Source: Cafeteria roenbergensis
Lineage: Eukaryota > Sar > Bigyra > Bicosoecida > Cafeteriaceae
Assembly: GCA_008330645.1 (NCBI GenBank)
Contig: VLTN01000018.1
Location: forward strand, 124,001-188,000
Direction of reading: 5' to 3'
Length of the DNA: 64,000 bases
The notes under the pieces were generated by a model that was given only the letters and a program-made list of their open reading frames with translations, had not been told where the DNA came from and did not search any database. The position numbers were made by a program, and so were the translations under genes. Numbering within the stretch: the first letter of the stretch is position 1; each line of letters opens with the position of its first letter. Shown piece by piece: positions 6,306-25,909 of this stretch.

Positions 6306-6844
6306 GCAAGCGAAGGTGTCCGTACGGTGCTATGGGGTGCCCTTGCCTGAGCGCGGACCCGTTGATTGTGTGCACTCGCGCCCGCCCAAGGCTTGAAGCA
6401 CCGCCTGCCGGAGTGTGCTCGAAATTGCAACCGCAAAGGCTGCCTCGGAGGCCTGACCTTGCCTCCTGGGAGTCACCTCGCCGACAGCCCCTACATGGCA
6501 AGGGTGCCCTGATGTCCCGTGCGGTGGTCTTCGCGACGGCGCAGCGCCTTCAGCCCCTGGAAAGCCCCGGCTCGTCTGCCCAGCGCGCAGCGGTTGCTTT
6601 TGGCTCCAAGCCCTGCACTCCAGCGGCAAGCTCGGCAAACCATCAGTGCCCGGCGCGCGAACGGTACCGTGGCGACCCGGGGCGGCGGAATGCGGCGGGT
6701 GTGGTCTCCCGCTGCTGCGTCTCTGGAGCCCGCTGGGCGGCGGCGGACCTGCCGTTGATGGGACGATTGACTGGCAGAGCCCTGCCGACCTCTGCCGAAC
6801 GCGCCTCGCGCGTGCGTCAGGGCACTACTGCAGGCTCGGGAGGC
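6306..6844 (+). other. Gap upstream of squalene epoxidase, open in its frame
   Basis: This 539-bp stretch has no independent gene. It stays open in the squalene-epoxidase frame, with in-frame ATGs at 6332, 6512 and 6758. A longer N-terminus is therefore formally possible, although the residues look like non-coding sequence. It probably contains the promoter and 5' leader. Confidence 0.45.
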
Positions 6845-9248
6845 ATGGACACGGCCCAGCTCGCAGACATGCTCTCGGGTCTCCAACCTGACGAGTGGAT
6901 GGCTGGGGCAGCGGGCGTCCTCGTCGCGTACTGCGGCGCCGAGCTGTGCATGCGCCCGGTGGCTGTCAAGACCGCGTCTGCAAGCGCGGCCCCTCGCTGG
7001 GACCTTTTCGGCGTGTTCAACATCGCCGCCCTCCTCGCTGCCGCTGCAGCGTGCACGTCGCTCGTGCGGGCACCGCCCGCCGGGTCCAATGGCTGGCAGG
7101 CCATGCCGGACTTCGCGAGCCTTGACACCCGCACGATTGTTGCCGTCGCCACTCTGATTGTCTGCCTCACCTACGCCTTCGCGTTTTGCGGCGTGGCGCT
7201 CGTTTGGAGAGCGATCGAGGACGAGAGCCAGAACGAGTCCATGCGCGTGCCGAAGCCACTGCCTGTGGACGCGGCAAAGCGCATGGCAGCGGCCCGCATG
7301 GAGCGCCTTCGCGCCGCCGGCATGGACGCCGACGTGATCATCGTTGGCGCTGGCACTGCCGGCGCCGCCCTTGCAACCCGCCTCGGCCGCCAGGGCCGCA
7401 ACGTCATCATCATTGAGCGCTCGAATGACATTCCCGTGAGAATCCCAGCCGCCCGCTCCTGGCTCGCGCTGGGGATCGCGTGCCGAGTCGTATCGCGTCC
7501 GTGCCCGGCTCCGTTCGGAGCAAGCGCGCGCGCGGTTCCGTGCACTTGAAGGATCTTCAAGGGCAACGCGCCAGCCCCTGCCCCTTCGTCGCTCCTGTGG
7601 ACCCTCGGGTTCCACTCCACGGAGTCGCGCCGCCCAATCGCCGCGCCACCGGCTCAAGGGCGAGCTCCTGCCCGGATGTCTCAAGGCGATCCCTCCCTCC
7701 CTCCCTCCCTCCCCGCGCCCATCCACACGCGCGCATGCACCCCTTTGATCTCCGCAGGAGCGCACCGTCGGCGAGCTGCTGCAGCCGGGAGGCCTCGCCG
7801 CTCTGGAGCGCATGGGCCTGTCCGAGGCAACCGACGCCTCTCGCATCGACTCCATCGCCGTCGAGGGCTACGTGTGCATCACGCCTGGAGGCGGCCCGGA
7901 GACGGACCTGCTCCTCAACTACCCCGACGACTCTCCCTCCAACGCTGACCAATTCCTCGGCTTCGTTGGAGGGCCCTCCGCTGTGGCGGCGGGCGACAAG
8001 CGCCCGAGCGGCAAGGTCCCGTCCAAGCAGACCAGCGGCACCGGCGGTCCTCCTCGCGGCCGCTCCTTCTGGAACCACCTCTTCGTGCACGAGCTCCGCC
8101 GCCTCGCCCGCGCGGAGCCCCTCGTTGACTTCCGCATGGGCTCTGTGCGCTCCCTCCTCGTTGACGGCGAGTCGGAGGACGGAGAGCACGATGCCGGCAC
8201 GGGATCCGGCTCCTGCCGCGGCGTGCGCTACGTCGCCGAAGATGGCACCCGCTGCATCGCCCGCGCGCCGCTCGTCGTGGTTGCGGATGGAATGTTCTCC
8301 ATCATGCGCCGCCGCCTCGACGCCGGACACCCGATCCCAACCTCCTCCTTCGTGGGCTACCTTCTCCACCACGCTGCCGACGAGCCCTGCGTCCCGTACC
8401 CGAACCGAGGCCATGTTGTCATGGCCGACCCCAACCCCATCCTCCTCTACCAGATCACCCCCACCCTGACCCGCATCCTCGTCGATATCCCAGGCGTGCC
8501 CCCCGCCGAGGAGGGCTGGATGCGCCGCTACATGGAGGACCGCGTCATGCACCAGCTGCCCGAGCGCGTGCGGCCCATCTTCCGCGACGCGCTGGCCACT
8601 CAGGAGCCCGTCACGTGCGTCAACAAGCGCCTCCCCGCTCGCCCGCCCTCGGTCAAGCGCGCCCTCCTCCTCGGCGACGCTTGGAACATGCGCCACCCCC
8701 TCACCGGCGGCGGCATGACCGTGGCTCTCCGTGACGTGGAAACCTTCAGCAACGCCATCGACGGGGTGGACATTGACGAGGATGCAGCCCTCGACGACGC
8801 CCTCGCAAAGTTCAGGCAGGTCCGCCAAGGCCATGCCGTTACCGTCAACGTCTTGGCCAACGCCCTCCACCGCGTCTTCACGCGCCCCGACCACGATGAC
8901 GGCACCCGCGCGGCCCTCCGCGAGGCCTGCATCGAGTACCTGAAGCTCGGTGGCCCCTCCTCTGCGGGCCCGGTCGGCCTCCTTGCTGCCCTCTCGCCCA
9001 AGCCCATCGTCCTCGTGTCTCACTTCTTCCTCGTTGCGCTCTTCGCCATCCGCCGCGCCCTGTTCCCTTGCCCCACGCCCGTGAGCATCATGCGCTCGTA
9101 CCGCCTGATGAAGATCGCGTGCATGATCATCATGCCGCTCGCCAGCGCGGAGGACGTCGCCCCGCTCTCGTGGGCGCCCGTGCGCTGGGGGCTGGACCTC
9201 ATCTTCGGCTGGTCTGCCATGGACGTCGACGAGGTGACTGCAAAGTGA
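6845..9248 (+). CDS. SQE: Squalene epoxidase (squalene monooxygenase), 693 aa, 2 exons
   Basis: Exons are 6845-7435 and 7758-9248 (donor GTGAGA, acceptor CCGCAG, phase 0). The enzyme uses FAD, O2 and a P450 reductase to convert squalene to 2,3-oxidosqualene at the ER, the first oxygen-dependent step of sterol synthesis. The dinucleotide fold VGAGTAGAAL is at about residues 163-172. The intron falls just before ERTVGELLQPGG, the SQE signature. The DG motif VVVADG and the FAD-binding GDAWNMRHPLTGGGMTVAL follow in family order. Three hydrophobic segments at about 17-33, 55-75 and 97-118 precede the FAD domain, and more hydrophobic stretches sit near the C-terminus (FFLVALFAI, IACMIIMPL). It is a conventional flavoprotein SQE, not the unrelated AltSQE of diatoms. 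The ATG at 6845 was chosen because it immediately precedes the membrane/FAD portion. It is the first of three same-strand sterol genes. Confidence 0.95.
7690..7714 (+). repeat. (CCCT)n simple repeat in the SQE intron
   Basis: About six tandem copies of a pyrimidine tetramer lie some 45 bp upstream of the CCGCAG acceptor. Its position suggests it may act as the polypyrimidine tract of this 322-bp intron. Confidence 0.85.
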
Positions 9249-9695
9249 GCTGACGTCGCATTTCGCCGGCTCACGGCGCGCGATGACACGTTCGTCTCCC
9301 AGCGCCCATTTTGCTCGTCTGGCGGGCTCTGCAACTGCTCCTGGACCAGAGTGACATGGGTTTGGGGAATGCGGTAGATTTGGCGCACAGCGCGGTCACT
9401 CAAAAAGCGCTGGCCTATTCTTCGCCAGGTCACACACCATAGCAAGCTGAAATGTCACAAACTCGCTCCTTGGCTCTCTGTCCTCTGCACAAGTGATTGG
9501 ATGTGCTGCATCTGAGCCGGACGGCAGTGGGGCGGACGTCGCACCAGCAACCCGAATCAGGCCTGCTTGCGGCAGTGGGCAAGAGCTCGACGCTTCGAAT
9601 TGCCGATTCGCCATCGTTCATGGACATAGGTAGCTGGTGGACGAGGGGGGGGGGGGAGGAATCGGAGCGGCGAAGCGCGCTCGACCTTGGACATC
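9249..9695. other. Convergent 3' gap between SQE and the ELWxxD gene
   Basis: No gene is supported. It holds the 3' ends of two convergent genes and an uninterrupted run of 12 G at 9645-9656. It is visibly less GC-rich than the coding regions beside it. Confidence 0.6.
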
Positions 9696-12600
9696 TCAAA
9701 CCTCGGCGCCGTCCTTCGCAGCAGCTACTCCGCTGGCCGACTGGAGCCCGTTGTCGCTCGCACCGGGAGCTGCCGCCGAGTTGCCGATGGCCGAGCGAGG
9801 CGCCTCGCTGCGCTTTCGCGATACTCGGGAGAGTACGAATCCGCAGCAGAGCAGCACAGCCAAGGCAGCGAGTGCGATGCCAACGATCAGACCCACCGAG
9901 GTTTCTCCCGCGGTCGAGTCTGGGGAAGGCCCGACATTGATCGGCGCGCCGCTGGCTTGGGTGATCGTGGTCGGGGTTGCCGAAGCTCCGGCGGACGCAG
10001 TGGCAGCCGCGCTTGGCGAAGAGCTCGAGGAAGGGGCTTGCGTTGCTGCCGAAGATGGAGCCGTGGAAGCCGACGCCGACGCACTCGGCGTCGCGGACGA
10101 CACGGCGCCCGTCGAAGGCGACGATGAGGGAGATGCGCTGTGCGATGCAGTGGCACTCGGGCTCGGCGACACGGAGGCAGATGCGGAGGCCGATGCGGAG
10201 GCCGATGCGGAGGCCGAAGATGGAGCCGTGGAAGCCGACGCCGACGCACTCGGCGTCGCGGACGACACGGCGCCCGTCGAAGGCGACGATGAGGGAGATG
10301 CGCTGTGCGATGCAGTGGCACTAGGGCTCGGTGATACAGAAGGCGACGCGGAGGCCGATGCGGAGGGCGATGCGGAGGGCGATGCGGAGGCCGATGCGGA
10401 GGCCGATGCGGAGGCCGACGCACTCGGCGTCGCGGACGACACGGCGCCCGTCGAAGGCGATGCTGAAGGAGATGCGCTGTGCGATGCAGTTGCACTCGGG
10501 CTCGGTGATACGGAGGACGATGCGGAGGGCGACCCCGACGCACTCGGGGACGCGGAAGAGGAAGCCGTGGCGCTCATCGACGGGGTTGGAGACGGGGTCG
10601 AAGTCGGCGTTGGGCTGGGAGTGCCCACGAATGCAGCATGCAGCTCTCGCCCAGTCGCAGCGCTCCCGACCGCGCTGAACACAAGCTCGTCCCCGAACAG
10701 CAGCAGATCTTGAGGGCCAGCGCCGGTGATGCCAGGGAAGACGTCATCGGCAAGATCCGTGGTTCCTGCGGAGTAAAGCCGAAACAGCTCTTGACCAACA
10801 GCAGGATGATAAGCCGAAAAGAACATGTCGCCTGTGGGATGAAATTGGACGTCGTGGATCGATGTCAGCTCTGGAAGCAGAAAGTCATCGAAATTAACCA
10901 AGGTGCTTGTGCCCGGAACCAGCGCCAGAAGTCGGTAGAATTGGCCTGCCATGTGGATGTTCACGAACATCAGAGCGTTTCCATATACCAGCATTTCGTC
11001 GAAAGATGAACTTCCTGCCCCCGAGGTCAAGTCCGCAGTGAGCGAAGCGCTTGTGCCATCCCACTGAAACAGCTCCGTGCCCTTCGTGGAGGTGGTGGCG
11101 CCGAAATAGATCGCGTTGCCGAGGAGCGTGAGGGCAAAAGGATTCGATGGGGTGGCACCCGCCTCGATGTCAGCAAGCACCTGAGCCCCAGCAGATGTGG
11201 CGTACGCCCAGAGCTCGCAGTCTTGGTTGGTGCCGCACATGCACGCCATGAACACTGTGTTCCCGGCCACCTCGAAGTTGTTGCAATGCGACCCCACGGA
11301 GCCGCTTGCAATGTCTTGCACCAGTTCAAAAGCCTCCTTGCCCAGGTGCTTCCACAGCTCGGCACCGTGTTCGGCAGAGGAGGCCGCCATCAGCAGCTCG
11401 CCGTCGACTGACACGAGGGCTGTGGGCGATGTGAGTGCGGCTCCAGTGCCAGCTTCCGACAGACTGGGCGCCACCATCGTCGCGCCGTGGGACGTGTTGA
11501 ACATCCAGAGCTGATTAGCGCTGGTGCCGACATCGGCAATAAAGAACACGCTGTTGTCGTGGATGCAGAACGTGCGAGCATTTGACCCCTGCGTTCCCTG
11601 CTGCGGCATGAGGGGTGAGACGCCCGATGCTGATGTCACGGCCAAGTCAGACTCGGCGCCGGAAGGACTGTACAGGACATTCAGCGTGCCGTTGAAGCTC
11701 ACAAGGCCGGACACAGAGTTGGTCTGGTTGGCAGTCAACCCTTGCGCATGGAGACTGAGAGATGTTCCGTCAAAGCGGAACACATGGTTCTGTCCACCGG
11801 GTCCCGAGCTCGCGTTCCACCCAAGGCCGTACATCTCGTCATTGTGAACGGTCAGAAATGACACGTTTGTCAGCTGAGGAGAGACGGCGTCGACCAGGAC
11901 CGGCTCGCTGGCCCCGTCAAGCTTGAAAAGGAACCGCTCGGTCGTTTGTGCACTGAAGTATAGGGAGTCATTGAATGCCACCAAGAACTGGGGGAAGCTG
12001 CCTCCTGCTCCCGGCTTGAGGTCGGACACGAGTCGCGCGCTCTGGTTGCGGTCGAAAGCCCAGAGTTCCGTGCCTGCGTCGGGGGCGTCCGCCTCTGCAG
12101 CCATGAAAAGCGTTTCGTTCACGGCAACCAAGAAGGCAGGGCTGCCGCCCTGGCCGGCGGCACTCTTGAACTGGTGGGCGATGGACACATGCCCGGATGC
12201 GTTCAGCACCCATAGCTCTGGGCCATTGGCCCCGTCATCGGCCTGGAAATAAAGTTCGTCGCCCAACCGAGTCATGTACTTTGGGCTGCCGCTGCAAGGT
12301 CCGGCGCACAAGTCCGCAACAAGCGTGATGGCCGATGTTGTGAGGTTCATGGCCACCAGCTCGGTGCCAACCAGCTCCGAAAGTTGCGCGCTAAAGTACA
12401 GCCTCCCGTTCAGCTCAGCGAAATGGGCAGGGTGGCCGCTTGCGGGCCCTGGGTTGAGGTCTGCGACAAGGGTGAGACTGCCGTCTGGGCTGAGGGTCCA
12501 GAGCTCGTTTCCCATGGCGTCGTCGTTGCGTGCTGCCATGTATAGGTTGCCGCGCACGGCGACAAGCTCGGAGTCCACGTCGCGGACGAACGGGTTCCCG

Positions 12601-12737
12601 TTGATGTCCCGGATCAGGCGAGCTGGCGTGGCCGCTATCGCGACAGCGGCGAGGGTACACGTGAGGAGCAAGCATGCAGCTGCCGTGGGGGCAGGGGCTC
12701 CGCGCTTTGGAAGAAGTCTCGGCGCCGAGCGTACCAT
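9696..12737 (-). CDS. Cell-surface protein with ELWxxD repeats, Ser-rich stalk and one membrane span, 1,013 aa
   Basis: Single exon. The ATG at 12737 begins a classical signal peptide: a short basic start, then a hydrophobic core near residues 17-36. The ectodomain up to about residue 700 holds around ten repeats with the pattern G-x-ELW (GNELW, GPELW, GTELW, GAELW, CELW, GTELF, GQELF), each after LYFxA-like strands. This is the ELWxxDGT repeat family, probably a beta-propeller-like fold. A stalk of almost pure Ser/Ala/Pro/Thr spans about 702-926 and is probably heavily O-glycosylated. A single transmembrane helix (GLIVGIALAALAVLLCCGFV, about 946-968) and a roughly 45-residue basic/acidic tail follow. 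Type I topology is inferred. The repeat family is best known from bacterial secreted proteins. Adhesion or recognition is a guess from architecture only. Confidence 0.85.
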   Translation of the reverse strand: MVRSAPRLLPKRGAPAPTAAACLLLTCTLAAVAIAATPARLIRDINGNPFVRDVDSELVAVRGNLYMAARNDDAMGNELWTLSPDGSLTLVADLNPGPASGHPAHFAELNGRLYFSAQLSELVGTELVAMNLTTSAITLVADLCAGPCSGSPKYMTRLGDELYFQADDGANGPELWVLNASGHVSIAHQFKSAAGQGGSPAFLVAVNETLFMAAEADAPDAGTELWAFDRNQSARLVSDLKPGAGGSFPQFLVAFNDSLYFSAQTTERFLFKLDGASEPVLVDAVSPQLTNVSFLTVHNDEMYGLGWNASSGPGGQNHVFRFDGTSLSLHAQGLTANQTNSVSGLVSFNGTLNVLYSPSGAESDLAVTSASGVSPLMPQQGTQGSNARTFCIHDNSVFFIADVGTSANQLWMFNTSHGATMVAPSLSEAGTGAALTSPTALVSVDGELLMAASSAEHGAELWKHLGKEAFELVQDIASGSVGSHCNNFEVAGNTVFMACMCGTNQDCELWAYATSAGAQVLADIEAGATPSNPFALTLLGNAIYFGATTSTKGTELFQWDGTSASLTADLTSGAGSSSFDEMLVYGNALMFVNIHMAGQFYRLLALVPGTSTLVNFDDFLLPELTSIHDVQFHPTGDMFFSAYHPAVGQELFRLYSAGTTDLADDVFPGITGAGPQDLLLFGDELVFSAVGSAATGRELHAAFVGTPSPTPTSTPSPTPSMSATASSSASPSASGSPSASSSVSPSPSATASHSASPSASPSTGAVSSATPSASASASASASASASPSASPSASASASPSVSPSPSATASHSASPSSSPSTGAVSSATPSASASASTAPSSASASASASASASASVSPSPSATASHSASPSSSPSTGAVSSATPSASASASTAPSSAATQAPSSSSSPSAAATASAGASATPTTITQASGAPINVGPSPDSTAGETSVGLIVGIALAALAVLLCCGFVLSRVSRKRSEAPRSAIGNSAAAPGASDNGLQSASGVAAAKDGAEV
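10051..10560 (-). repeat. Tandem repeat coding the Ser/Ala stalk, periods 165 and 174 bp
   Basis: The same roughly 110-bp core appears three times, with the landmark GCACTCGGCG at 10081, 10246 and 10420. Short GATGCGGAGGCC-type units of varying number separate the copies. Copies 1 and 2 are nearly identical, while copy 3 has several substitutions. All spacings are multiples of three, so the stalk frame is kept. This suggests recent expansion and possible length variation between strains. Confidence 0.9.
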
Positions 12738-13587
12738 CACGGTCGCGGCGTTCACACAGGCAGTCTTGGTGACGAGAGTGCCTCGCTGGCCGAGGGCTTG
12801 CTTGTCTCTTGCTTGCACCCAAGCGAGCCGCCCAGGGGGTGTTTCACCTCTGCAGCTCGGTGGCGGGTTCGCCGGCCGGGGGTCCGCGTGGCCCCAGGTG
12901 TGGACATGATCAGCCCCGCACCGCCGTCGTGGCTCTGTTTTCGCGGTGCGCTCGTCAGATTCCCGACCGACCACAGTCACAAGCCAGTCAGTCAGCCACA
13001 GAAACGGGCCAAAACAATCGACTGCCCGCAGCTGCCTTCCGCCAGCAAGCCTCGACGCGCGAACTGACGAGAGGGCAAGACTCTCCATGCCGCACGCAAC
13101 CGAGCATCTGCGCACCGGCTGCCCCGCGGGAAGGCCCCCGCTGACGCAGGCGGCGATTTCCGACAGCAGCAAGCCATGCAGCGGCACAAACCACTGCCCG
13201 CAGAGATTCCACTCCGGGAGGGCGGGCGCAACTGCCTCCGCTGCCGGGGCGAGAGGAGCAGTGCTGCGAGAAACCCTTGCATCGACCAGGGCAACCTTGC
13301 TGGCAGCTTGTCGACGGCCTCCTGCCTGGGGCACCCCATGACCCAGCCGCCACAAACCCGGCAAAGCGTGCCAGTCGTCAGCGCCATGTCGAACACGACG
13401 TGGGCTCCGCTGCTGGCCCATTGCCAGGGGCAATCGATCTTCGCCAGCGAAAACGCCAAGCGAGGTGCACATCTGACGCCAGGGACCAAGCTCACCGCCA
13501 GCTGCAGCCAGTGAAGCGCTGCATGGCGGGGGAGGGCTTTTGCTTTCTCCATTGCATGAACGCCCGCAGGCCGTATGGATGCACTGT
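12738..13587 (-). other. 850-bp gap upstream of the ELWxxD gene
   Basis: Open frames on both strands lack any recognisable protein feature. It separates two tandem minus-strand genes and should contain the promoter of the surface-protein gene and the 3' end of the ankyrin gene. I see no RNA gene or repeat in it. Confidence 0.45.
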
Positions 13588-15234
13588 TCACGGCGGTGAT
13601 CCCGCCTCCATCAGGTCTGCGCGCAGCTCTTCCATCAGTTCCGACGGACAGTCGGCCCAACGGTCAAGCACTGCCGCCGCGTCGGTCCGCCAACGGCTTC
13701 TTTCGCCCGGCGGCACGCTCAAACCAGAGGGACCGGCTGACGAATCAGAGTCGCCGAGATCGCCGGAGTCGACGCTTGCAGGGCCGCGCGCGCCCACAGC
13801 AGAGTCTGACCTGGCTGCAGGTCTGGGAACCGTCGATGGCGCTAGCTTGGCGCCGGCTGAGCGAAGAGCCTTGACTCGCTCAACGAGCTCTGTGGTGTGC
13901 TCTTTGCCCGCAAGCTGCTTGAGGCAAGCCAGGAGCAGGGGCTCTCGAACCTTGCCTGCAACCACTGCGCCGCTGGCGCCAGCGTCGGCGACCATGGCCT
14001 GGACGGCGGCGACGTCGCCTTCCGTGGCTGCGATCCAGAGCGGGGTGCGGCCGCGCTTGTCCGCCGCCTCCGGATCGGCCCCCGCGCCGAGGAGCAGCAC
14101 GACGCACGCTCGCGCGTCGCCAGGCCTCGCCTCGTGCGCAGTCCCCACGCAATGGAGCGGGGCCCAGCGACGGTGGTTGCGGCTGAACCCGGCGTCGGCG
14201 CCTGCCCCCAGCGCCGCGGCCACGGCCCCAGGACTGGACCGCGCTGCCGCGCAGTGGAGGATGGTGCAAGACGGGCCCTTGTCCGACAGCTTGGCCCTTG
14301 CCAGGCCAGGAACGACCCTGCAGAGGGCCGCCACCGTCCCGCCGCAGTCGGGGCTGAAGCACTCGGGAAGGGCCGCGTCCAGCGCGTCCAGCACGCACTC
14401 GGGCACTGCCTCCGTCTTGGCAGGCGCAGTCCCGGCCCGAGCTGCAGCCTTTGCCGGAGCAGCAGCCCCCGCAGCGGCGGCAGCGCCGCCACCCTTGGGG
14501 GCCTTTCCACCCTTGGACTCCTTGCCGTGCGGCAGAGCCTTGGCCGCCTTCCCAGGCCTGCGTGGCTTGGGCGCGGGAGCGTTGCCAGCAGCGGCTGCCA
14601 GGGCAGCGCGCTCGCCCCCTGCCGGGACCGCGCCTTCCAGGTGGAGCTCCGTTGCGCCCCTGTCGTCCTGGTCAACAGCGTACACTACCGGCCTTCCGCT
14701 GCGCTGCGCGTCCAGGCACTGCTGCAGCAGCTCGGCCGCTGCCGCCGGGTTACCCAGCCGGGCGGCGTGCAGCAGGCCCAGGCCCGTGTCTTCCGGTGCC
14801 AGCGGGGCGCCCTCAGTATGTCCCATGGCGGTGGCCACCTCGCCGAACCCCCTGCGCAGCGCGGCGTTCATTGCGCTCGTGCCGGACGCGTTGGTCGCGC
14901 GCGCCGGGAACTCCAGCCTTCGCAACACGTCAGCGAGGCGGCCGAGCGCCTCGTGGCCAGCGGGGTACCATGGAACTGAGCTAATGAGAACATATGCGGC
15001 GGTAGCCCGTGCGGCGGGGCTCAGTGGCCGGCACGCAGCCAGGAATGCATCGAGGTCGTGCTGCTTTGGCCCTGCTGCTCCGGGCTCAAACGCCGACGCC
15101 AGGGCGCACGCCGCCAGCACGCCCGTTCCAGCACGGGTCTCCTCCTCCTCGTCGCCGGGGTCGACCCCGTTGCCCGTTGGCAGCGGGCACCGTTCCGAAG
15201 CGAGCATGAGAGCGTGTGCCAGCAAGTCGGACAT
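13588..15234 (-). CDS. Ankyrin-repeat protein, 548 aa
   Basis: Single exon. The first true ATG is at 15234 (MSDLLAHALM); the frame upstream of it opens only at a GTG. Three to four ankyrin-like units lie at about residues 325-450. They include TILHCAAARSSPGAVAAAL, APLHCVGT, ACVVLLLGAGADPEAADK and GRTPLWIAATEGDVAAV, which carry the TPLH and GADP hallmarks. An Ala/Lys/Gly-rich low-complexity linker is at about 245-285. The Ser/Asp-rich C-terminus shows no further domain. Ankyrin arrays mediate protein contacts, and no partner can be inferred. It is divergent from the cyclase gene, starts 264 bp apart. Confidence 0.75.
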   Translation of the reverse strand: MSDLLAHALMLASERCPLPTGNGVDPGDEEEETRAGTGVLAACALASAFEPGAAGPKQHDLDAFLAACRPLSPAARATAAYVLISSVPWYPAGHEALGRLADVLRRLEFPARATNASGTSAMNAALRRGFGEVATAMGHTEGAPLAPEDTGLGLLHAARLGNPAAAAELLQQCLDAQRSGRPVVYAVDQDDRGATELHLEGAVPAGGERAALAAAAGNAPAPKPRRPGKAAKALPHGKESKGGKAPKGGGAAAAAGAAAPAKAAARAGTAPAKTEAVPECVLDALDAALPECFSPDCGGTVAALCRVVPGLARAKLSDKGPSCTILHCAAARSSPGAVAAALGAGADAGFSRNHRRWAPLHCVGTAHEARPGDARACVVLLLGAGADPEAADKRGRTPLWIAATEGDVAAVQAMVADAGASGAVVAGKVREPLLLACLKQLAGKEHTTELVERVKALRSAGAKLAPSTVPRPAARSDSAVGARGPASVDSGDLGDSDSSAGPSGLSVPPGERSRWRTDAAAVLDRWADCPSELMEELRADLMEAGSPP

Positions 15235-15498
15235 TTTCGCAACCCGACACTGGCGCACGCCCAGCGCCTCCCCGCACACGCGGGCGGGTCCTCCGGCAGA
15301 AACGGGCGAGCGCGGGGGGTGGGCATGCGCGCTCGCCCCACTGCACGCTGCGACGCCTCAACTCCCCCGGCGCCTGGCTTAGCAGAGCCTGCCGTGCGGG
15401 CGACGCTTCACCAGCATCAACAACAGCCTTGCGAGGCTGCCGGCCGCCTGCCGCGCACCTTGAGAGGGCCGGCACCTTGCGCCCAGGAGAGCGGAGCG
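15235..15498. promoter_or_regulatory. Shared upstream region of ankyrin gene and oxidosqualene cyclase
   Basis: 264 bp separate the two divergent start codons, so both promoters must lie here or overlap the leaders. No TATA box or other known element stands out. The call rests on geometry alone. Confidence 0.45.
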
Positions 15499-18258
15499 AT
15501 GGAGTGGGCCACTGACCCGGTCGTCCTCCTGAGCATCGTTGCCGGGGCGGCCTTGCTGCTCGTGCTGCAGTGGCAAACAGCTCGCCCGGCCGCTGGGTTT
15601 GGGAGCGGAAGCAACACCTGGTTCCGCCATATCGACTCGACGCCCCGCAAGCACCAGCCCAAGCACCACAAGCTGGAGCACGTCTGGGAGTACACCGGGC
15701 GGGGAGTGAGGCCCAACGCCAGTGGCGACGGCTTCGTGGACGACATGACAGGCGAGGAGGTGGTTGGACCCCTCGCAGGCCGCCAGACTTGGCGCCCGCA
15801 CGCCCGCGACGACGAGGACACACTGCGAGCTTTCGAGCCGGAAGACAAGGCCTTCAACCCGGTCAAGAACCCGGTGAGCACTGGAGCTGCGAGTCAAGCT
15901 TGCGCGCAGTTGGCGGCGTCCTCGTCACACGCACAGCACTGGCCTCGCGCGCGAGCTCCCCCACTCTCTCGCCTTCGGGGGCCCTTGCCATTTATGTCCG
16001 TGGTGGGGGCGAGGGAAGGGGCAGGGGCAGTGCTGTGCGCGCAGTCGCTCGAATGGCGCGCCCGCATCCCGGCTCCCGTTGCCGCTGGCAGTATCCTGGC
16101 TTTGCGCTGACGGTGGCTGCTGGAGTCCATCGCGCTTGCCGTTCGTCCCCGATGTGTCCGGGCCCTGCCGTGCCCGCAGCACGCGGCGGACAAGCTCCTT
16201 CGCTATCAGATGCGCACCCAGAAGGGCCTCCCCGCGCCGGGCACCACGCCCTCTCGCGGGGCGGCCGCTGCCGCGCGTGCCACTGTGGTAGACGCCCTCC
16301 GCGACGGCATTGACCACCTCGTCTCCCTTCAAACCCCAGACGGCCACTGGGCCGGCGACTACGGAGGCCCCTTCTTCCTGCTCCCCGGCTTCGTGATCAT
16401 GGCATACGTCACAGCCGTGGACCTCGGAGCGCCCACCCGGTCCGCTCTGCTCACCTACCTCCGCAACCACCAGCAGGCGGACGGCTCCTGGGGGCTCCAC
16501 CTGGAGGGCCCGGGCACGATGCTCGGCACGGCGCTCAACTACGCGGCCGCGCGCCTCCTCGGGATGGCCAAGGACGAGCCCGCCGCCGCCCTCTCGCGCT
16601 CCTGGCTCAAGGCCCAGGGGGGCGCCGTGTCCATCCCGGCCTGGGGCAAGGTGTGGCTCTCCGTCCTCGGCGCGTACGACTGGGAGGGCGTCAACCCCGT
16701 GCCCCCGGAGCTCTGGCTCCTGCCCACCTGGCTGCCCTTCCACCCCGCCAACTTCTGGTGCCACGCTCGGATGGTGGCCCTGCCCATGACGGCCCTCTAC
16801 GGCGCCCGCTTCATCGGCCCGCTCTCCCCCCTCGTCACCAGCCTGCGCTCCGAGCTCTACCCCGGCACCGACTACGCCTCCATCCGCTGGGCCGACCACC
16901 GGCTCAACATCTGCCCGCTGGACCTCTACTCGCCCCACACGCCCCTGTTCAAGCTCGTCTCGTGGGTGCTCGGCGCCTACGAGCGCGTCGCCGTGCCCTT
17001 CCTCCGCCGCGCCGGCATGGCTGCGGCCCAGGCGTACCTCGACGCGGAGGACCTGCAGTCCAACTACGTGTGCATCGGGCCCGTGAACAAGGCCTTCAAC
17101 ATGGTCTGCTGCTTCGCCTTCCACGGCCCGGACTCCGCCCTCTTCCGCAAGCACGTCGCTCGCGTGAGGGACTACCTGTACGTGTGCGAGGATGGCATGC
17201 GTGTGCAGGGCTACGGCGGGTCGCAGCTCTGGGACACCTCCTTCGCCGTTCAGGCCGTCTGCGAGGCGGGCATGGGCGCCAGCGTGGCGCCGCAGCTGCG
17301 CCGCGCCCACGCCTTCATCGACGCCTCCCAGGTCCGGGACGACGTGCCCCTCACCAAGGAGTTCCACCGCGACACCGCGCGCGGCGGCTGGACGTTCAGC
17401 ACGGCCGACAACGCCTGGCCCGTGGCCGACTGCACCTGCGAGGGCATGCGCGCCTCGCTCGCCCTAGAGGCCGGCGGCTTCGCCGGCGAGGACGGCGAGC
17501 TCGCCGCCAACCGATACTTCGCGGCCGTCAACCTGGTCCTTGCCTACCAGAACGCCGACGGGGGCTGGCCCACGTACGAGCGCGAGCGCGGCGGCTCGTG
17601 GCTCGAGTCTCTTAACCCCGCCGAGGTGTTCGGCGACATCATGATCGACTACTCGTACATCGAGCTCACGTCGGCGTGCATTCAGGGCCTGGCCGAGTTC
17701 CAGGGCCGCTTCCCCGGCCACCGCGCCGCGCAAATCAGCAAGGCCATCGACCGCGGGATGGCGTTCATTCGCCGCCAGCAGCGGCCCGACGGCAGCTGGT
17801 ACGGCAGCTGGGCGGTCTGCTTCACCTATGGCGCGTGGTTCGCCGTGGAGGCGATCCGCACCGCCGGCAACGCCGACGACGCCGCGCTCCTGGACCGCAC
17901 CTGCGCCTTCCTCCTCTCCAAGCAGCGCGACGACGGCGGCTGGGGCGAGACGTACCTCAGCTGCCTCAAGAAGGAGTACTGTGACGCCCCGTCCAGCAAC
18001 GTCCAGACCGCCTGGGCCCTCCTCGCCCTCATCGGCGCCCAGTGCCCGGACCGCGACGCCGTCGCCCGCGGCGTGCGGTTCCTCCTCGCCTCGCAGACCA
18101 AGGACGGAGACTTCCCCCAGCAGCAGACCGTCGGCATCTTCAACCGCTCCTGCGGTATCTCCTACAGCAACTACCGCAACATCTTCCCCGTGTGGGCTCT
18201 GGGGGCGTACGCTCGCCGCTACGACTTCCAGGATGCCACGCTCGTGGGCACCCTCTGA
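15499..18258 (+). CDS. OSC: Oxidosqualene cyclase, predicted lanosterol-type, 817 aa, 2 exons
   Basis: Exons are 15499-15873 and 16180-18258 (GTGAGC/CCGCAG, phase 0). The enzyme cyclises 2,3-oxidosqualene to the first sterol skeleton. Family marks are clear: QW-type motifs (GHWAGDYGG, GGWPTYE, GSWYGSW, GGWGE), GSQLWDT at about 472-478, and the catalytic acid in DCTCE (D542-E546; usual form DCTAE). The Cys in AVCFTYG that hydrogen-bonds the acid is present. Aligned without gaps to the plant STADHGWPISDCTAE block, the site reads STADNAWPVADCTCE, so Arabidopsis H477 and I481 correspond to N536 and V540. The Y410 equivalent is Y470. Asn plus Val favour lanosterol over cycloartenol. About 40 residues precede the usual N-terminal NTWFRH/VWEY region and include a hydrophobic helix (9-25), so the protein may be anchored by a transmembrane span. 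Confidence 0.95.
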
Positions 18259-18464
18259 CCGCAGAGCGGCGACTTCGGAGCCTTCAGTGCGTCCCGCCGC
18301 TCGGCTCGGGCGCCCAGCGGAGAACTGGCCGGCCGGCCGGCGAGGGCGCGCCCTTCCGGGCTGCCAGCTCGCCTGCGCGCCAGCGTGCGTGCCAACATGC
18401 GTGCGAGTGTGGCGGCCGCCCTCGCAACGCCTCCTCTCCCCAACGCAGCGCACTCACGCACCCA

Positions 18465-18500
<36 letters not shown>

Positions 18501-18721
18501 CACAGCGCACGCAGCGCGCTCGAGGTCGGCCCCAACACGGCTGCGCATGCGACGGCGCGTGCGGACTACGTGCTCCACGATCTTGGCAGAGGCGCGTGGG
18601 GCAGCGGGGTCGGAATCGCGATGCTGTTGCGCAGCTGGCAGCTCGCGACCTCCAGACGAGAGAGAAGCACGCACGGCACGCACACAGGCTCACACTTCCC
18701 GTCACGCAACCGGGAGCCAAG
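18259..18721. other. Convergent 3' gap between cyclase and Nop12-like gene
   Basis: No gene is supported. It contains the two 3' ends and a CACG microsatellite (listed separately). Confidence 0.6.
18463..18501. repeat. (CACG)n microsatellite
   Basis: Nine to ten uninterrupted tandem CACG units lie in the intergenic stretch downstream of the cyclase. The length is likely to vary between strains. Confidence 0.9.
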
Positions 18722-20534
18722 TCACTCCCTGCCCCGGCCACCGCGCCCGCCACCGCGCCCGCCACCGCGACCACCGCCCCGACCACGGCTGCCGCCGCGC
18801 CCACGGCCACCGCCGCCGCCCCGGCCACCGGAAAAGCCGCCGCGCCCGCCGCCGCGCCCGCCGCCGCGGCCTCGGGAGCCCCCCCGGCCCCTGGACGACC
18901 CGCCCTGCGCCTTACGCCGCATCGCACGCGCCGCGTCCACGCCGGCGCGCGCGCCCATGTAGTCCGGCACCTCGCCGCGAAGGCGCCGGCCGCCTCCGCC
19001 GCGGCCCTCCTCCTCCTCGCCGGCCTCGCCCTCCTGGCCCGGGGCCTTGCCCGCGGCGCGCATGCGGCGAGCGGCGCCGCTCTCGGAGCCGTCGGCGCCC
19101 GCGCGCCCGCCCCCGCGCCCGCCCCCGCGCGCGGCCGCGGCGGAGCGCACGCCAGCCTCGGTGGTGACGGTGCGGCGCTTGCACGGCGCCACCTGGAGCT
19201 TGCGGCCCGACAGCTCGAGGCCCTTGTTGGCCAGCGCCAGCGCCTCGGCCACGGGCACGGAGTCCACGAAGCGCACGTACGCGATCCCCTTGCCCTGGTT
19301 CGTCACGCGGTCGCGAGGCACGCGCACGCTGTCGATGACGTCATCGCCACCGCCGAGGTTGCTCGCAAAGAGCGCGCGCACGCTCTCCTCGGTTGCGTCG
19401 TAGGGGAGCTGGCCGACGAAGACGGTGCGCTTGTTGTCGGCCGCGGCGTCGGTGCCGGAGGCGATGTCGGCGCGGAGGTGGTGGCCGAGGACGACAGCGT
19501 TGTGCAGGACCTTGCGGGCCGCGACGGCGTCGTCCTCCGCCTTGAAGACGACGTAGGCGTTCATGCTCTCGCCGCCTGCGAAGCGGCCCTGGATGAAGGC
19601 GGCGCGGCGCTGGGTGCGGTGGCCTCCCTCCTTGGCGGCAGCCACGTTGGTGAGGGGCACGGAGCGGAAGCGGATGGACTCGATGCGGGGGGCGGCCTCG
19701 CGGCGGAGCTTGAGCGTCTCCGGGTCGTCGCGGGGGGCGGCAGCGGCGGCGGCGGCGGCGGAAGAGGAGGAGGAGGAGTCATCGGCGGCGGCGGCTGCCG
19801 CAACGGCCTCGGCAGCGGCCTGCTCCTTTGCCTCCTCTGCGGCCTCGTCCTCGCTGTCGCTGTCGCTGCTGCTGCTGCCAGAGCCGCCCTCCTCGGGGTC
19901 CTGGTCGTCGGCCTCGGCCTCCTCCTGGCCGTCAGCCTTGCGGGCCCGCTTGGCGGCGCGCTTGGCCTCGGCCTCCTTCTTCGCCGCCTCCCTGGCCGCG
20001 TACTCGGCCTGCTTCTTCTCTGCCAGCACTCGCTGGGCCTCCACGCGCACCTTGACCGCGTCGTCGTCGATGCTCAGCCCAAGAAGGGCCGACACAACGA
20101 CGCGCGTCAGGATCTTAGTGGTCATGTGCAGGGGCACGTTGCCCAGGAAGAGCGTGCGCTTCTGGCGCTCGTCCGACTCGAGGTCTGCACCGTGCAGGTG
20201 CTTGCGGCGGCGGCCAACCTTGGGGCCGGCCCCGGCCGCAGCGCCCTCCTCGCGGGGGCGCTTCTTCCCGCGGGCCGCCGCCGCCTCCTCGGCCGTGGGC
20301 GCATCGGGCACAGCTGCGAGGCGAGGGTGAGCCAGAATGCACGGCGGCAACGGCGGTTGGTGCAGCGGAGCGCGGGATGGGCGGACGCAAATCGCAGGAG
20401 CGCTTGCAACTGCACGGTGGGCCGGGCACACAGGGGCTGCGATCGCCCTTTTCCGGCGCGCGCTCACTGGTAGCTGCCACGTGGACCAGGGACTCCCCGG
20501 ACGGCGCCGCGAACGCGTCTGCAAGGGTCGCCAT
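18722..20534 (-). CDS. NOP12: Nop12/RBM34-like nucleolar RNA-binding protein, 552 aa, 2 exons
   Basis: Exons in coding order are 20468-20534 and 18722-20313 (GTGAGC/CGCAG, phase 1). Two RRM domains are visible. The first begins KRTLFLGNVPLHMTT with an RNP1-like NAYVVFK. It is split by a long Ala/Glu/Lys and acidic-Ser insertion, as in the Nop12/RBM34 family. The second is RTVFVGQLPYDATEE with GIAYVRFVD. A basic GKKRPREEG stretch near the N-terminus looks like a nuclear signal. The C-terminus (about the last 85 residues) is an RGG/GAR domain typical of nucleolar proteins. The family member Nop12 acts in 60S/5.8S rRNA maturation. The gene is divergent from the WD40 gene, with 131 bp between starts. 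Confidence 0.85.
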
Positions 20535-20665
20535 GGCTGCTATGCGGCCCAGAAGTGCTGCTCCGCGCGACTCGCTCTGCTGGTTCAGCCTCGGAGTTCC
20601 AGTGGCAGCAACTCTGACCTCGCAATTCGAGCGGCGATGCAACACTTGTGCTGCTCCATGCGCTG
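20535..20665. promoter_or_regulatory. Bidirectional promoter region, Nop12-like / GNB1L-like
   Basis: Only 131 bp separate the divergent ATGs, so the two genes very probably share promoter DNA. No canonical element is recognised. Confidence 0.55.
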
Positions 20666-22450
20666 ATGGAGAGCCTGGTCGCGCCACCGCCTGCGCCCCG
20701 CACGGTGCTGCGGGATCTGGCCTCTTCGCCCAGTACATGCCTGGACCTGGCGTCCGACTGCGGCCGGGAGCTGCTCGTGTCCGGGTGAGCGCGAGCGAGC
20801 ACTTGGACGGGTCCGCGCGCGCCGCCCCCGACTGCAGCCCCGTGTTGCTCCGGCTTACGCGTGCGATCCTGCTCGAAGTGACTGCCGCCGCGCAGGTCCG
20901 ACGATGGGCGGACCACGGTGTGGGACCTGGCAACGTCCAAGCACTGGTACTCGTGGCCTGCGCACGAAGCAACCGTGCTCGCGGTGGCGCTGCTCAGCGG
21001 TGAGGACGACTCGGAGGGCTTCCGGTGCCGCATGCTCACGCACGGCCGGGACGGGGAGGTCCTGATTTGGGAGTGCCCGGCGCCGTGGCGCTCCGGGGCG
21101 CCGGCAAGCGCGCCGCCCCCTGCGCAGCTCGCCCGCGTCTCGGCCGGAGTGGGATCCTACTGCGCAACGGCGCATGCGCTTTGCCCTGCGCCGCGGGGCC
21201 TGCAGTCGCTCCTGATGGTTGTCCCCGGCGGCCTGGAGTCTACCTCGAGCGCTGCCGTGGTCACCGCCTCTATCGATGTGACGGCAGCGCCAGGCGATGC
21301 CCGGGCCTCCGCCGCTGGCTGCACCGACGCTGACGACGCTACCAGCGCCGCAGCTGCCTCAGTCCCAGCGCTCGACGTCGACGAGGCGGGAACGGAGTTG
21401 GTGGTGGCTTCAGCCGCTGGCCGGCCCGAGGTGCGACGGGCGCTTGAGGCCGGGGCGAGGCTCCCCGCGGTGGCGGGGCGGCCAGCCTACGCGACCCCGC
21501 GCCTGGGGAGCGCGCCCCCAGCAGCCTCCCGGGCAGGCGGCGCCCCAGATGGCTCGTTGGCGCCGGGGCACTCTGAAGCGCCTCTCGGCCTGGGTCCGCA
21601 GGTCAGCTGCGTGTTCGAGCCGGACGACCCCTCCGCCGAGCCGGACCAGGGCCTCGGGGAGGACGGCCTGCCCAAGCGCGCGGGCATGCTCATGGCCGCG
21701 GCGCTGCTTCGGTGCCCGCGCAGAGCACCGGCCGACGCCGCTGCTGGCGCGGCCGACGGCGGAGAATGGGCTGTGCTCGGGTACGACGCCGGAAGGGTCT
21801 CCGCGGTGCGCACTTCGGACGTGCGCGGTCCCTGGAGCGCGGAGCCAATGGACCCCGCCTCCCGCGCCCGCGCCCTGGAACCTGCACGGGCGCTCGTCTC
21901 GTCGACCCACCCGGCCCTGCACCCCGTGACGGCGGTGGCCGCGTCCCCCGACTCTTCGATGGTGGCGGTCGGCACTTCCGCGGACTTTGTGGTTCTCGTG
22001 CGCGTCACCTGGGAGGAGGTGACCGTGGCGCGCGAGGCGGCGGGCGGGCCTGCCGGCCGCGACTCGGGGGCAGCAAGGCAATCGGGCGCAGGGCGTGGCC
22101 TGGGAGCCGTGTTCGGCGGTCGAGCAGCGCAGCCGCCTGCGTTGGTGGAGCACGCTCGCGTTGTGCGGCCGCGCCTTGAGCCCGACAGAGCCGTGCAGCT
22201 GCCCCGGGCCGGCGTCTCGAGCGTTGCATTCGCCATGAGCGGCCGGGCGCTCGTTGCCGCGTGCTGGGACGGCAGGGTTCGCATCTTTGACACGTCGCAA
22301 GGCCTGGAGCAGGCCGCGTGCCTCGCCTGGCACCGCGTGAGCGCCTACAGCTTGTCCGTGGGCGCCGGCCCGCGCGGCAAATCCGCAAGGTTTGCCACCG
22401 GCGACAAGGAAGGCCGCATCGCGGTGTGGGACGTAGCCCTGGATGAGTGA
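20666..22450 (+). CDS. WD40 protein of the GNB1L/Asa1 type, 557 aa, 2 exons
   Basis: Exons are 20666-20784 and 20896-22450 (GTGAGC/CGCAG, phase 2). The join yields PAPRTVLRDL...LLVSG followed by SDDGRTTVWDLATSKHWYSW, HEATVLAVALL and LTHGRDGEVLIWE, which matches the start of GNB1L. The C-terminus (SSVAFAMSGRALVAACWDGR, RIFD, then LAWH and GDKEGRIAVWDV) matches its last two blades. The middle holds degenerate repeats with Ala/Pro-rich insertions, so the protein is longer than human GNB1L (about 330 residues). GNB1L and fungal Asa1 work with the TTT/ASTRA co-chaperone that matures PIKK kinases. The exact orthology is likely but not certain. Confidence 0.7.
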
Positions 22451-22674
22451 CCGCACCGAGCGGCGGCAGGCTGCGCGGCCACCGAACCGCGGCTCTCGGG
22501 CACGCAATCAGAGGCGCCGATGCATTCCCCTCTCGCCTCTGCGCGAACAGCAACCGCCGCCATCGCACGCTCTGCTGCCCTAACCTCAGCACGTCGTCGG
22601 TCCAGCCCGACTTTGTGCGCTCCCCCGCCGGGGGGCGCCCACTCGTGGCCTTTCCGAAGGAGCGAAGCTGAAGG

Positions 22675-25600
22675 ATGGCTGCCCACCAGTCGAGTGACGT
22701 GAGCCGACCGCGGCGGCGTCCCTGCGCGGGGGCAGGCGAATCGCGCTGGTCGGTAACTCTGGGCGCTCGCTTGCCAGACCAAATCTGCGCTGCTGCGCGC
22801 CCCCGCCCCGCTGCCGCAGGCCGTGTTCGAGGGGGCCGACGCGGACCAGATCAAGATGATGGAGGAGCGCGTCATCTTGGTGGACGAGGACGACAACGTG
22901 GTGGGCGCGGCCTCCAAGAAGGACTGTGAGGCGCCGTTTGAGTTGGCCAGCAGACGAACGGGGAGCGCAAGTCCCCGAGTTTCCACCCCCCGCCGCCTGC
23001 CGCGATGGCGCCACCCCCGCGGCGGGCGCCTCAGCTTGCTCGGGGGGTGCCCTTGCTGCTTTCCCGGCGCCGGCGACCCTGTGGCGAGTCCCCGGCGGGC
23101 TGCGCATTGCCCGGCGCACGCCGCAAGGCAGCGGGCGAGCCGCCAGCAACCCTCGCTGTGCGCCTGGCCCGTTTGGCTCGATCTTGCCCCGGCACCGCCC
23201 CGCCCCGCCCCGCCCCGCCCCTCCCCCGTGGTCCGCAGCGCACCTCATGGAGAACATCGACAAGGGCATGCTGCACCGCGCCTTCTCGGTCTTCCTGTTC
23301 ACGCCCGACGGGCGCCTGTTGCTGCAGAAGGTGAGCAGCGCCATCGGTCGTGCGCTGCCGCACCTCGGCGATCCGCTTGCGCCCGGCCCGACGCGCCCGG
23401 GAATGCCCCGCCTCCAGACCTTGCCGCTGCCACTGGCCACACTCTTGCGCTTCCGGGGGGAGGCTGCCATGCCTCCCGCGCGAAAGCCAGCGGGGGATCT
23501 GTTGCGAGCGGCCTCGCGCTCCGCTCGACGTCAGGAAACATTCCGGTTGCCGTTGGTCCGGCGGTCCGCCTCGCGACACATGCGCCCCTACCCCTGTCCC
23601 TGCCTCGTGCGCCCACCCTGTTTCGCCCCGTGCAGCGCTCCGAGGCCAAGATCACCTTCCCCGGGTTCTGGGCCAACACGTGCTGCAGCCACCCGCTGTC
23701 CACGCCGCTGGAGCTCGAGGAGCGCGACGCAATGGGCGTGAAGCGCGCCGCTCGCCGCAAGATGGAGCAGGAGCTCGGCATCAACCCGGACGAGGTCCCG
23801 CTCTCCAGCTTCCGCTACCTCACGCGCATCCACTACGTCGCTGGCTGCGGCGACGGCGTCTGGGGCGAGCACGAGATCGACCACATCCTCGTCTGCACTC
23901 CGCCCACCGTCCCGGTGGTGCGGCCCAACGACAACGAGGTTGCCGAGGCCCGCTGGTTCACCGCGCCGGAGCTCAGCGCGTTTGTTCGTGACGCCCTCGA
24001 GGGCCGCTCCGAGGAGAAGATCAGCCCCTGGTTCGGCATCATCGAGAACACTCTGCTGCACCCCTGGTGGGAGGCCCTGGCGCGCGGCACGCTCGCCGAC
24101 CACGTGGACGCGGTCACCATCCACCGGGCGGACGACCTGCCCACGGCGTCTGCCGCGCGGGCTGCCGAGGGCCGCGCCGAGCCCGCGGCTCGCCCCACCG
24201 CCGCCTCGGCCGCGCTTCCTGACGGCGGCTCGCACACCGGCTCCGACGGCGACGCTTCCAAGAAGCAGGGCGCCTACGGGAAGGTCAAGGTGCACTCGGA
24301 GGGCACGCTCTCGCAGCTCTGCCGCTTCGACGAGGTGGCCATCGCCGCGGCATACAAGCTCGGCCTGAGCAAGGCCGCCGCCGTGGAGTCGCTGCCAGAC
24401 TCCACCTCGGCCGACTACCTCTGGTGCGAGGAGATGCTGTGCAAGACCAGCCGCTCCTTCGCCCTGGTAATCCAGCAGCTGCCCCTGCCCCTCCGCAAGG
24501 CCATCTGCATCTTCTACCTCGTGCTCCGCGGCCTCGACACCGTCGAGGACGACATGACCACCTACATCGGCCGCGAGGCGGAGAAGCTCGACACTCTCCG
24601 CGGCTTCTGGCGCCGCCTCGATGACCCCACCTTCCACATCGACGGCGTGGGCGAGGCCGACGAGCGCGTCCTGCTCGAGCGCTTCAGCTCCGTCAACACC
24701 GCGCTGGCCGGCCTCCCCGGGGACGTGCGCGCCGTGATCCGCGACATCTGCGCCCGCATGGGCGAGGGCATGGCCCGCTTCGCGGGCCGCGACCTCAGCG
24801 GCGGCACCGAGAGCTCTGCCGAGTACAACCTGTACTGCCACTTCGTGGCCGGCCTCGTGGGCGAGGGCCTCTCCCGCCTCTTTGCCGCTGACGGCTACGA
24901 GAGCCCGTCCGTCGCCGCCAACACGGCCCTCTCCAACGACATGGGACTCTTCCTCCAGAAGACCAACATCATCCGCGACTACCTCGAGGACCTCGTTGAG
25001 GGCCGCGCCTTCTGGCCGCGCGACATCTGGGGCGACTACGCCCCCTCCCTCTCGGCGGTGCGCGACTCCCCTCGCTCCCTCGAGTGCCTCAACCACATGA
25101 TCTCGGACGCGCTGCAGCACGCCCCGCACTGCCTCCGCTACCTCGAGAGCCTCCGCGACCCGGACGTCTTCCGCTTCTGCGCCATCCCCCAGCTCATGGC
25201 CATCGCCACCCTCGAGAAGCTCGCCAACAACCCCGACGTCTTCACCGGCGTGGTCAAGATCCGCAAGGGCCTCGCCCTCAAGCTCATCTCCGGCTGCGAC
25301 GACATGACCTTCGTCTACGACACCTTCCTCGGCCTCACCCGCGCCGTGACCGCCAAGATTCCCGCCGACCACACCGTCGCCTCCACCGCGGCAGCAGCCG
25401 CGCTCGAGGACGTCGAGGCCGTGGCTCTGCCCCGCCTCCCCGCCTCCTCGCTCGAGGCCCTCTTCAGCGTGCGGACCATGCTGGCGGTGCTCGCCGTCTT
25501 CGGCGTCACCCTCAGCCACCTCTACTCCCGCTCCGCCTTCTGGGAGGACGGCCTTGCCTCCGTGCCCCGCATCACCGACAAGTGGGACGTCCTCGTGCTC

Positions 25601-25909
25601 TGCGTCATGGTCGTCTGCATCCTCTACTGCTTCGCCTTCCTCGGCCTCCCCGTCATCCTCTTTGGCGCGAACCGCGCCCCTGCGCCCGGCTCGGGCAAGG
25701 CCGTCCCGGAGTCCTCTCTCGAGACCCTCGGCGCCGACGCGGCCGGACCGGTGTCGGCCAGCAGCACCCCCGCATGCAGCCCCGCCGTCGCCGCCCTTCT
25801 CAAGCAGCGCAGCGAGGAGGCCGCGCGCGGGAAGCCCACGGAGGCGGAGCTCCGCGCCGAGGGCGAGATGGCGGCCACCGAGGCGAGGCGCCGCGCCACC
25901 GCCCACTGA
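22675..25909 (+). CDS. IDI-SQS: Isopentenyl-diphosphate isomerase-squalene synthase fusion, 845 aa, 4 exons
   Basis: Exons are 22675-22698, 22778-22925, 23239-23330 and 23636-25909 (phases 0, 1, 0). Residues about 30-255 are a type-I IDI. They include [17 protein letters not shown], the catalytic Cys in NTCCSHPL, the Nudix helix RRKMEQELG and the metal/acid site [10 protein letters not shown] Lys/Ser/Gly linker leads to squalene synthase from about 310. That part carries the first Asp-rich motif DTVEDD (about 389), [13 protein letters not shown], and the second, [12 protein letters not shown] (about 536). Two hydrophobic helices near 700-724 and 739-765 anchor it, where SQS usually has one, and an Ala-rich tail of about 75 residues follows. 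One chain would thus interconvert IPP/DMAPP and make squalene from two farnesyl-PP at the ER. The same fusion order is known in diatoms and haptophytes. The 24-bp first exon is the weakest part of the model. Confidence 0.95.
23195..23220 (+). repeat. (CCGCC)n pentamer repeat in IDI-SQS intron 2
   Basis: Five tandem pyrimidine-rich pentamers lie just upstream of the CCGCAG acceptor at 23238. Like the repeat in the SQE intron, it may serve as the polypyrimidine tract. Confidence 0.85.

Follow-up and report, generated by a model that had tools for sequence, protein, structure and literature searches.

Oxidosqualene cyclases that carry Tyr, Asn, and Val (Y,N,V) at the positions equivalent to residues 410, 477, and 481 of Arabidopsis CAS1 (AtCAS1) have been described in oomycetes and in plants. 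The purified Y,N,V enzyme of Saprolegnia parasitica (SpLASA) yields lanosterol as its single product, and the same triad has been reported for cyclases predicted in S. diclina and in three species of Aphanomyces (Dahlin et al., 2016; PMC5101207). A follow-up to this oomycete work has been published (PMC5289490), and two Aphanomyces cyclase sequences were called cycloartenol synthases in an earlier EST paper (PMC2248709). According to Dahlin et al. (PMC5101207), the Y,N,V triad was previously known only from plants, and the Arabidopsis and Lotus lanosterol synthases carry it; in their set, Y,H,V represents the bacterial lanosterol-type triad and Y,Q,V is unique to the Euglenozoa. The product of both dicot enzymes (Arabidopsis At3g45130 and its Lotus japonicus counterpart) has been reported as lanosterol (Kolesnikova, 2006; Suzuki, 2006; as cited), and these enzymes exist beside a cycloartenol synthase, which plants cannot do without; turning cycloartenol into phytosterols depends on a cyclopropyl sterol isomerase (PMC8172173). 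In the bacteria tested by Wei et al. (2016; PMC4919349), the residue at human position 453 shows complete correlation with the product, Val accompanying lanosterol and Ile cycloartenol. Val alone is no proof of lanosterol formation, since plant tirucalladienol synthases also carry Val at position 481 (PMC6423090).

The cyclase analyzed here is encoded by Cafeteria roenbergensis, a bicosoecid stramenopile, in a stretch of 64,000 nucleotides (the window; positions 124001-188000 of contig C18, 70.2% GC) within a searched genome of 36,303,456 bases in 167 contigs. A search of the window at Rfam gathering thresholds returned 0 matches. The gene model, drawn by eye from the genomic sequence, comprises two exons on the plus strand encoding 817 amino acids: exon 1 (15499-15873, residues 1-125), a predicted GT..AG intron in phase 0 (15874-16179, with a GTGAGC donor whose GT starts at 15874 and a GCAG acceptor), and exon 2 (16180-18258, residues 126-817 and the stop codon). 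The spliced product reads ...KNP|HAADKLLRYQ... across the junction and resembles KHSADLLMRLQ of AtCAS1. Profile searches detect both cyclase domains above cut-off (PF13243, 1e-61; PF13249, 3e-52), and exon 2 aligns with human lanosterol synthase (PDB 1w6k, E 2.5e-200). The subfamily model TIGR01787 clears its cut-off of 322.7 with 673 bits; TIGR03463, the model for the bacterial type, reaches 703 bits and falls short of its own cut-off of 851. With both domains and the TIGR01787 subfamily model over cut-off, the predicted gene product is an oxidosqualene cyclase, and it is the single PF13243 cyclase found in the genome searched.

The region translated from positions 17206-17442 of the plus strand (QGYGGSQLWDTS...FSTADNAWPVADCTCE) contains the three diagnostic residues. 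Tyr470 (17212-17214, codon TAC) aligns with AtCAS1 Y410 and human T381, Asn536 (17410-17412, codon AAC) with AtCAS1 H477 and human C449, and Val540 (17422-17424, codon GTG) with AtCAS1 I481 and human V453. The sequence-only reading that preceded this work had assigned the same three AtCAS1 equivalences. The two-exon model reproduces its residue numbers, all three residues align without ambiguity to AtCAS1, and an alignment with 1w6k that is gap-free around positions 449-459 and the DCTAE motif confirms the assignment; the misassignment that this reading had named as a possible refutation did not appear. The AtCAS1 sequence used for this comparison was entered by hand, and its residues 410, 477, 481, and 483 read Y, H, I, and D, as expected. 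The Cafeteria cyclase thus carries Y,N,V in place of the Y,H,I triad of cycloartenol synthases, and it shows the residues by which lanosterol synthases are recognized, with Val at human position 453 (V540) and a residue other than His at 449 (N536). Several further residues are retained, including W476, F531, W669, F779, and the pair H320 and Y591 (human H232 and Y503), whose AtCAS1 equivalents H257 and Y532 are typical of cycloartenol as well as lanosterol synthases (PMC6423090).

In its residues, the Cafeteria cyclase falls among the Y,N,V lanosterol synthases already described from oomycetes and plants, and the sole oxidosqualene cyclase found in this genome very probably works as a lanosterol synthase. 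In such an enzyme, Asp542 would protonate the epoxide of 2,3-oxidosqualene and trigger a chair-boat-chair cascade leading to the protosteryl cation. With Asn536 and Val540 replacing His and Ile, the rearranged cation would then be deprotonated to the 8,9-alkene of lanosterol, avoiding the loss of the C19 proton that closes the cyclopropane ring. The sequence-only reading had invoked CAS1 mutagenesis from the Matsuda laboratory (Lodeiro et al.), in which the same two substitutions reportedly yield almost only lanosterol. It had also presented the triad as a state reached naturally on a CAS-like background. The lanosterol-type nature of the triad stands, given that the Y,N,V enzymes of S. parasitica, Arabidopsis, and Lotus make lanosterol, while the CAS-like background is not supported. 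The natural Y,N,V state is not new, and the Cafeteria triad is a further case of a known type, since Y,N,V has been published both in S. parasitica and in plants; among the titles listed in a literature search of open-licence PMC articles, none concerned the Cafeteria cyclase.

The closest described counterpart, SpLASA, shares with the Cafeteria cyclase a stramenopile origin, the Y,N,V triad, and the PF13249 and PF13243 domains (PMC5101207). The two proteins are of similar length (805 and 817 amino acids, respectively), and the transmembrane stretch predicted at the N-terminus of SpLASA is paralleled by a hydrophobic stretch at about residues 4-26 of the Cafeteria protein, with a hydropathy maximum of 2.24 over 19 residues from residue 5. 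The product has been demonstrated for SpLASA and is predicted for the Cafeteria enzyme. The dicot lanosterol synthases differ in their genomic context, operating beside a cycloartenol synthase where Cafeteria has one cyclase found. A lanosterol route has also been proposed for the dinoflagellate symbionts of the Symbiodiniaceae using a similar line of evidence, namely lanosterol-type residues and no isomerase gene found (PMC7527140), but that proposal is backed by sterol profiles under inhibitors, while the Cafeteria route is read from its genes.

The search for a cyclopropyl sterol isomerase in Cafeteria bears on this reading. An Arabidopsis CPI1 query entered by hand found no match in the Cafeteria genome even at E 1. 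As a control, the same query was run against 12 bacterial genomes, taken from the 19 behind the bacterial cyclase loci of our alignment, and matched in two of them (E 5.8e-42 and 4.0e-25), with a weak match in a third (E 0.19). A bacterial isomerase homologue used as query gave two weak matches in the Cafeteria genome (E 0.055 and 0.15), which reach about 2e-5 each when the database is reduced to the two loci and composition correction is switched off. These matches were judged to be due to chance: they lie on different contigs, in biased GC-rich frames devoid, by eye, of any conserved isomerase motif, and the same two places were matched neither by the Arabidopsis query nor by a second bacterial homologue. 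The missing isomerase constitutes weak evidence for a lanosterol route, because marker-gene recovery in Cafeteria assemblies is only 82-84% (PMC6972860), the first query was entered by hand, and matching proceeded exon by exon. Two myxobacterial genomes (those of cyclase loci L013 and L015) encode homologues of the plant cyclopropyl isomerase, at 38% and 30% identity (L028 and L029), yet their cyclases L013 and L015 are of the Y,Q,V type. The L015 genome contains, in addition, a divergent cyclase with His and Val (L044), but in the L013 genome no cyclase besides the Y,Q,V one was found. Isomerase presence in bacteria, hence, does not track the triad.

Other components of the sterol pathway were located elsewhere in the Cafeteria genome. 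A CYP51 gene lies at positions 159469-160779 of contig C46 (best PDB match 1.8e-117), the ERG4/ERG24 family, which includes the C14-reductases, has two matches, and the FA_hydroxylase family has 15, not resolved into individual enzymes. A search for the sterol C24-methyltransferase with PF08498 returned nothing in the Cafeteria genome, and the control genomes were equally silent; four matches to a yeast ERG6 query (25-36% identity) appear by eye to be generic methyltransferases. PsaA and PsaB also had no match in the Cafeteria genome, which fits a heterotroph but may simply reflect missing organelle contigs. Halocafeteria seosinensis, a member of the same order, has been reported to express genes for a cycloeucalenol-isomerase-like protein, squalene monooxygenase, and a C24-methyltransferase (PMC5447177). 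If both this report and the absence of the isomerase from Cafeteria hold, the sterol route differs within the bicosoecids.

The surroundings of the catalytic acid depart from those of other cyclases. In an alignment of 24 rows, comprising the Cafeteria protein, AtCAS1, 8j5z, human and yeast enzymes, and 19 bacterial relatives, the motif at the acid site reads DCTCE (17428-17442, plus strand). Its catalytic Asp542 and the adjoining Cys543 are D and C in 24/24 rows, and Cys545 (17437-17439) occupies a position where 20 of the 24 rows have Ala and three have Ser. Leu621 (17665-17667, plus strand) stands where the remaining 23 rows all have Cys, at the site of human C533 and AtCAS1 C562. For C562, a hydrogen bond to the catalytic Asp has been put forward as a possibility (PMC6423090), and this strongly conserved Cys, which was not used here as a defining feature, is lacking in Cafeteria. 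With Leu621 encoded by CTC and Cys545 by TGC, a single base error is an unlikely source of either residue, because no Cys codon can be reached from CTC, nor any Ala codon from TGC, in fewer than two base changes. The nearby Cys625 was considered as a substitute for the Cys lost at 621 and rejected, since Cys is found there in 15 of the 24 rows, Cafeteria included. The Cafeteria protein departs at 3/75 columns that are invariant in the other 23 rows, with Ala249 for human L161, Gly471, adjoining Tyr470, for N382, and Leu621 for C533. Judged by sequence comparison, this count is not extreme, because the same measure gives 14/86 for the hand-entered yeast ERG7, 12/84 for 8j5z, and 4/76 for the human enzyme (2/74 for AtCAS1 and 0 to 2 departures for the bacteria); what appears to matter is where the departures lie. 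A further unusual residue is Ala325, equivalent to human Y237 and Tyr in 22 of the 24 rows; in the human structure, Y237 reportedly lines the substrate channel. Leu621 could alter acid strength or rate.

These departures lend some substance to the alternative that the enzyme forms mixed products, or still makes cycloartenol, through residues outside the triad, the modified acid site (Leu621 and DCTCE), or Gly471. The loss of the Cys partner of the catalytic Asp, the change beside Tyr470, and the Ala at human position 237 would all be compatible with an altered product. Set against them, the Y,N,V cyclases with a reported product (S. parasitica, Arabidopsis, and Lotus) yield lanosterol, and no isomerase that would process cycloartenol was found in the Cafeteria genome, so that this alternative appears improbable beside a lanosterol synthase.

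The distribution of triads among the 19 bacterial relatives, which leaves out the Cafeteria sequence, bears on how the Cafeteria triad arose. Y,N,V is present in 5/19, Y,Q,V in 3/19, and Y,H,I in 11/19. Chance is no concern for the Cafeteria residues themselves, but with five such bacterial relatives the pair cannot be called rare. All five Y,N,V cyclases belong to the Methylococcales (L004, L005, L006, L007, and L011), accounting for five of the six rows from this order, the sixth (L008) having Y,Q,V. These Y,N,V and Y,Q,V loci from bacteria broaden the picture of triad distribution drawn by Dahlin et al. Tyr at position 410 is shared by 19/19 bacterial relatives, whether accompanied by N,V, Q,V, or H,I, and is hence no marker of cycloartenol synthase ancestry. 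The sequence-only reading, which proposed a CAS-like background, had noted the Tyr410 equivalent as a feature of cycloartenol synthases; that background draws no support from it, and the tree of the 24 aligned rows leaves the Cafeteria sequence unplaced. In this tree, the AtCAS1 and yeast rows were entered by hand, the yeast row is long-branched, and the Cafeteria row triggered a treekit warning of unusual letter composition. In separate approximately unbiased tests with the triad columns included, grouping the Cafeteria sequence with the two plant rows is not rejected (p-AU 0.365), and neither is grouping it with human and yeast (p-AU 0.181). The placement in an oxidosqualene cyclase tree advocated earlier has thus left the sequence with neither plants nor opisthokonts, but it did reject a clade of the Cafeteria sequence with the six Methylococcales rows (p-AU 4.2e-5). 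When the three triad columns are removed, the tree implies 4 changes at position 481, counted over the 23 rows that have either V or I there, and, over all 24 rows, 6 at position 477.

The identical triad of five Methylococcales cyclases could point to acquisition of the Cafeteria gene from a bacterium with this triad, a methanotroph for example. Besides the rejection of the corresponding clade, on which grounds transfer from a methanotroph was discarded, the gene model contains an intron and its neighbors are genes of a eukaryotic pathway, all of which makes such an acquisition extremely unlikely. These Methylococcales enzymes are 44-45% identical to the Cafeteria cyclase, and under this model the Cafeteria triad does not share its descent with that of the Y,N,V bacteria. 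A scan of viral contigs found no relative.

Two vertical histories can be envisaged for a Cafeteria lanosterol synthase. On the one hand, Y,N,V may have been inherited from an ancestral stramenopile lanosterol synthase shared with the oomycetes, with no conversion of a cycloartenol synthase, a scenario compatible with the lanosterol synthase reading. For the oomycete enzymes, Dahlin et al. (2016) proposed as possible an origin in an early ancestor of lanosterol type with a Y,H,V triad (PMC5101207), and the failure of the 24-row tree to group Cafeteria with either plants or opisthokonts agrees with shared inheritance. Cycloartenol use near the Cafeteria lineage, as suggested by the Y,H,I triads of a brown alga and two diatoms (PMC5101207) and by the cycloeucalenol-isomerase-like gene of Halocafeteria (PMC5447177), argues against it, leaving inheritance a reasonable possibility short of a probable one. 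On the other hand, Cafeteria might have passed from a cycloartenol to a lanosterol route through the two substitutions engineered in CAS1 in the laboratory, losing the isomerase that Halocafeteria kept and rebuilding its acid site around Leu621 and DCTCE. This conversion can be advanced only tentatively and we regard it as rather unlikely.

The cyclase gene lies between two other genes of early sterol synthesis. Upstream, a squalene epoxidase gene spans approximately 6332-9248 on the plus strand, with an FAD-binding part at about 7331-7465 and a catalytic exon at about 7812-9248; it is supported by PF08491 (8.3e-76), by FAD-binding matches, and by the PDB squalene monooxygenase 6c6n (1.7e-62), and constitutes the single squalene epoxidase match in the genome (C18:132265-133077). 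Downstream, profile and PDB matches delimit a gene fusing isopentenyl-diphosphate isomerase and squalene synthase at approximately 22823-25909, also on the plus strand. Its NUDIX and SQS_PSY domains are over cut-off, as is TIGR01559 (380.5 bits, cut-off 286.75), with TIGR02150 just below (104 bits, cut-off 105.8), and it matches PDB structures of squalene synthase (2e-79) and of the isomerase (2.6e-22). The gene likely contains introns, because the isomerase part is spread over several frames. The same two-domain fusion is found in the diatom Phaeodactylum (PtIDISQS), but in the diatom an alternative squalene epoxidase serves the pathway, where Cafeteria has the classical enzyme. Just beyond the fusion gene there is a short-chain dehydrogenase on the minus strand (26839-27963; PF00106, 1e-29), resembling by eye the 2,4-dienoyl-CoA reductases, and further along the window the same strand bears an open frame of 3384 residues (46063-56217) that is, by eye, rich in Ala and Arg.

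Lying on one strand within about 20 kb (window positions 6332-25909), the predicted genes for the formation of squalene, oxidosqualene, and the first sterol form a loose cluster, interspersed with unrelated genes, namely one ankyrin, one RRM, and one WD40 gene, and with one unassigned frame. Under the rough assumption of uniform random placement, the chance of finding this particular triple within 19.3 kb is about 8.5e-7; for any three out of a set of 12 to 20 sterol genes the figure is about 2e-4 to 1e-3. The CYP51 and ERG4/ERG24 matches map to contigs other than that of the cluster, and no sterol enzyme was recognized by eye in the 10 kb flanking the window on each side. No title listed in a search of the open-licence PMC literature dealt with the clustering of these three genes.

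With a lanosterol synthase in Cafeteria, the Y,N,V lanosterol-type cyclases known by experiment in oomycetes would gain another branch of heterotrophic stramenopiles. It would then be possible to test how often, and in which direction, lineages have switched between the cycloartenol and lanosterol routes, in a group that may include both. The Leu at the acid-partner site of the Cafeteria enzyme is a natural experiment on the need for that Cys, and the three-gene early sterol cluster is worth checking in other stramenopiles.
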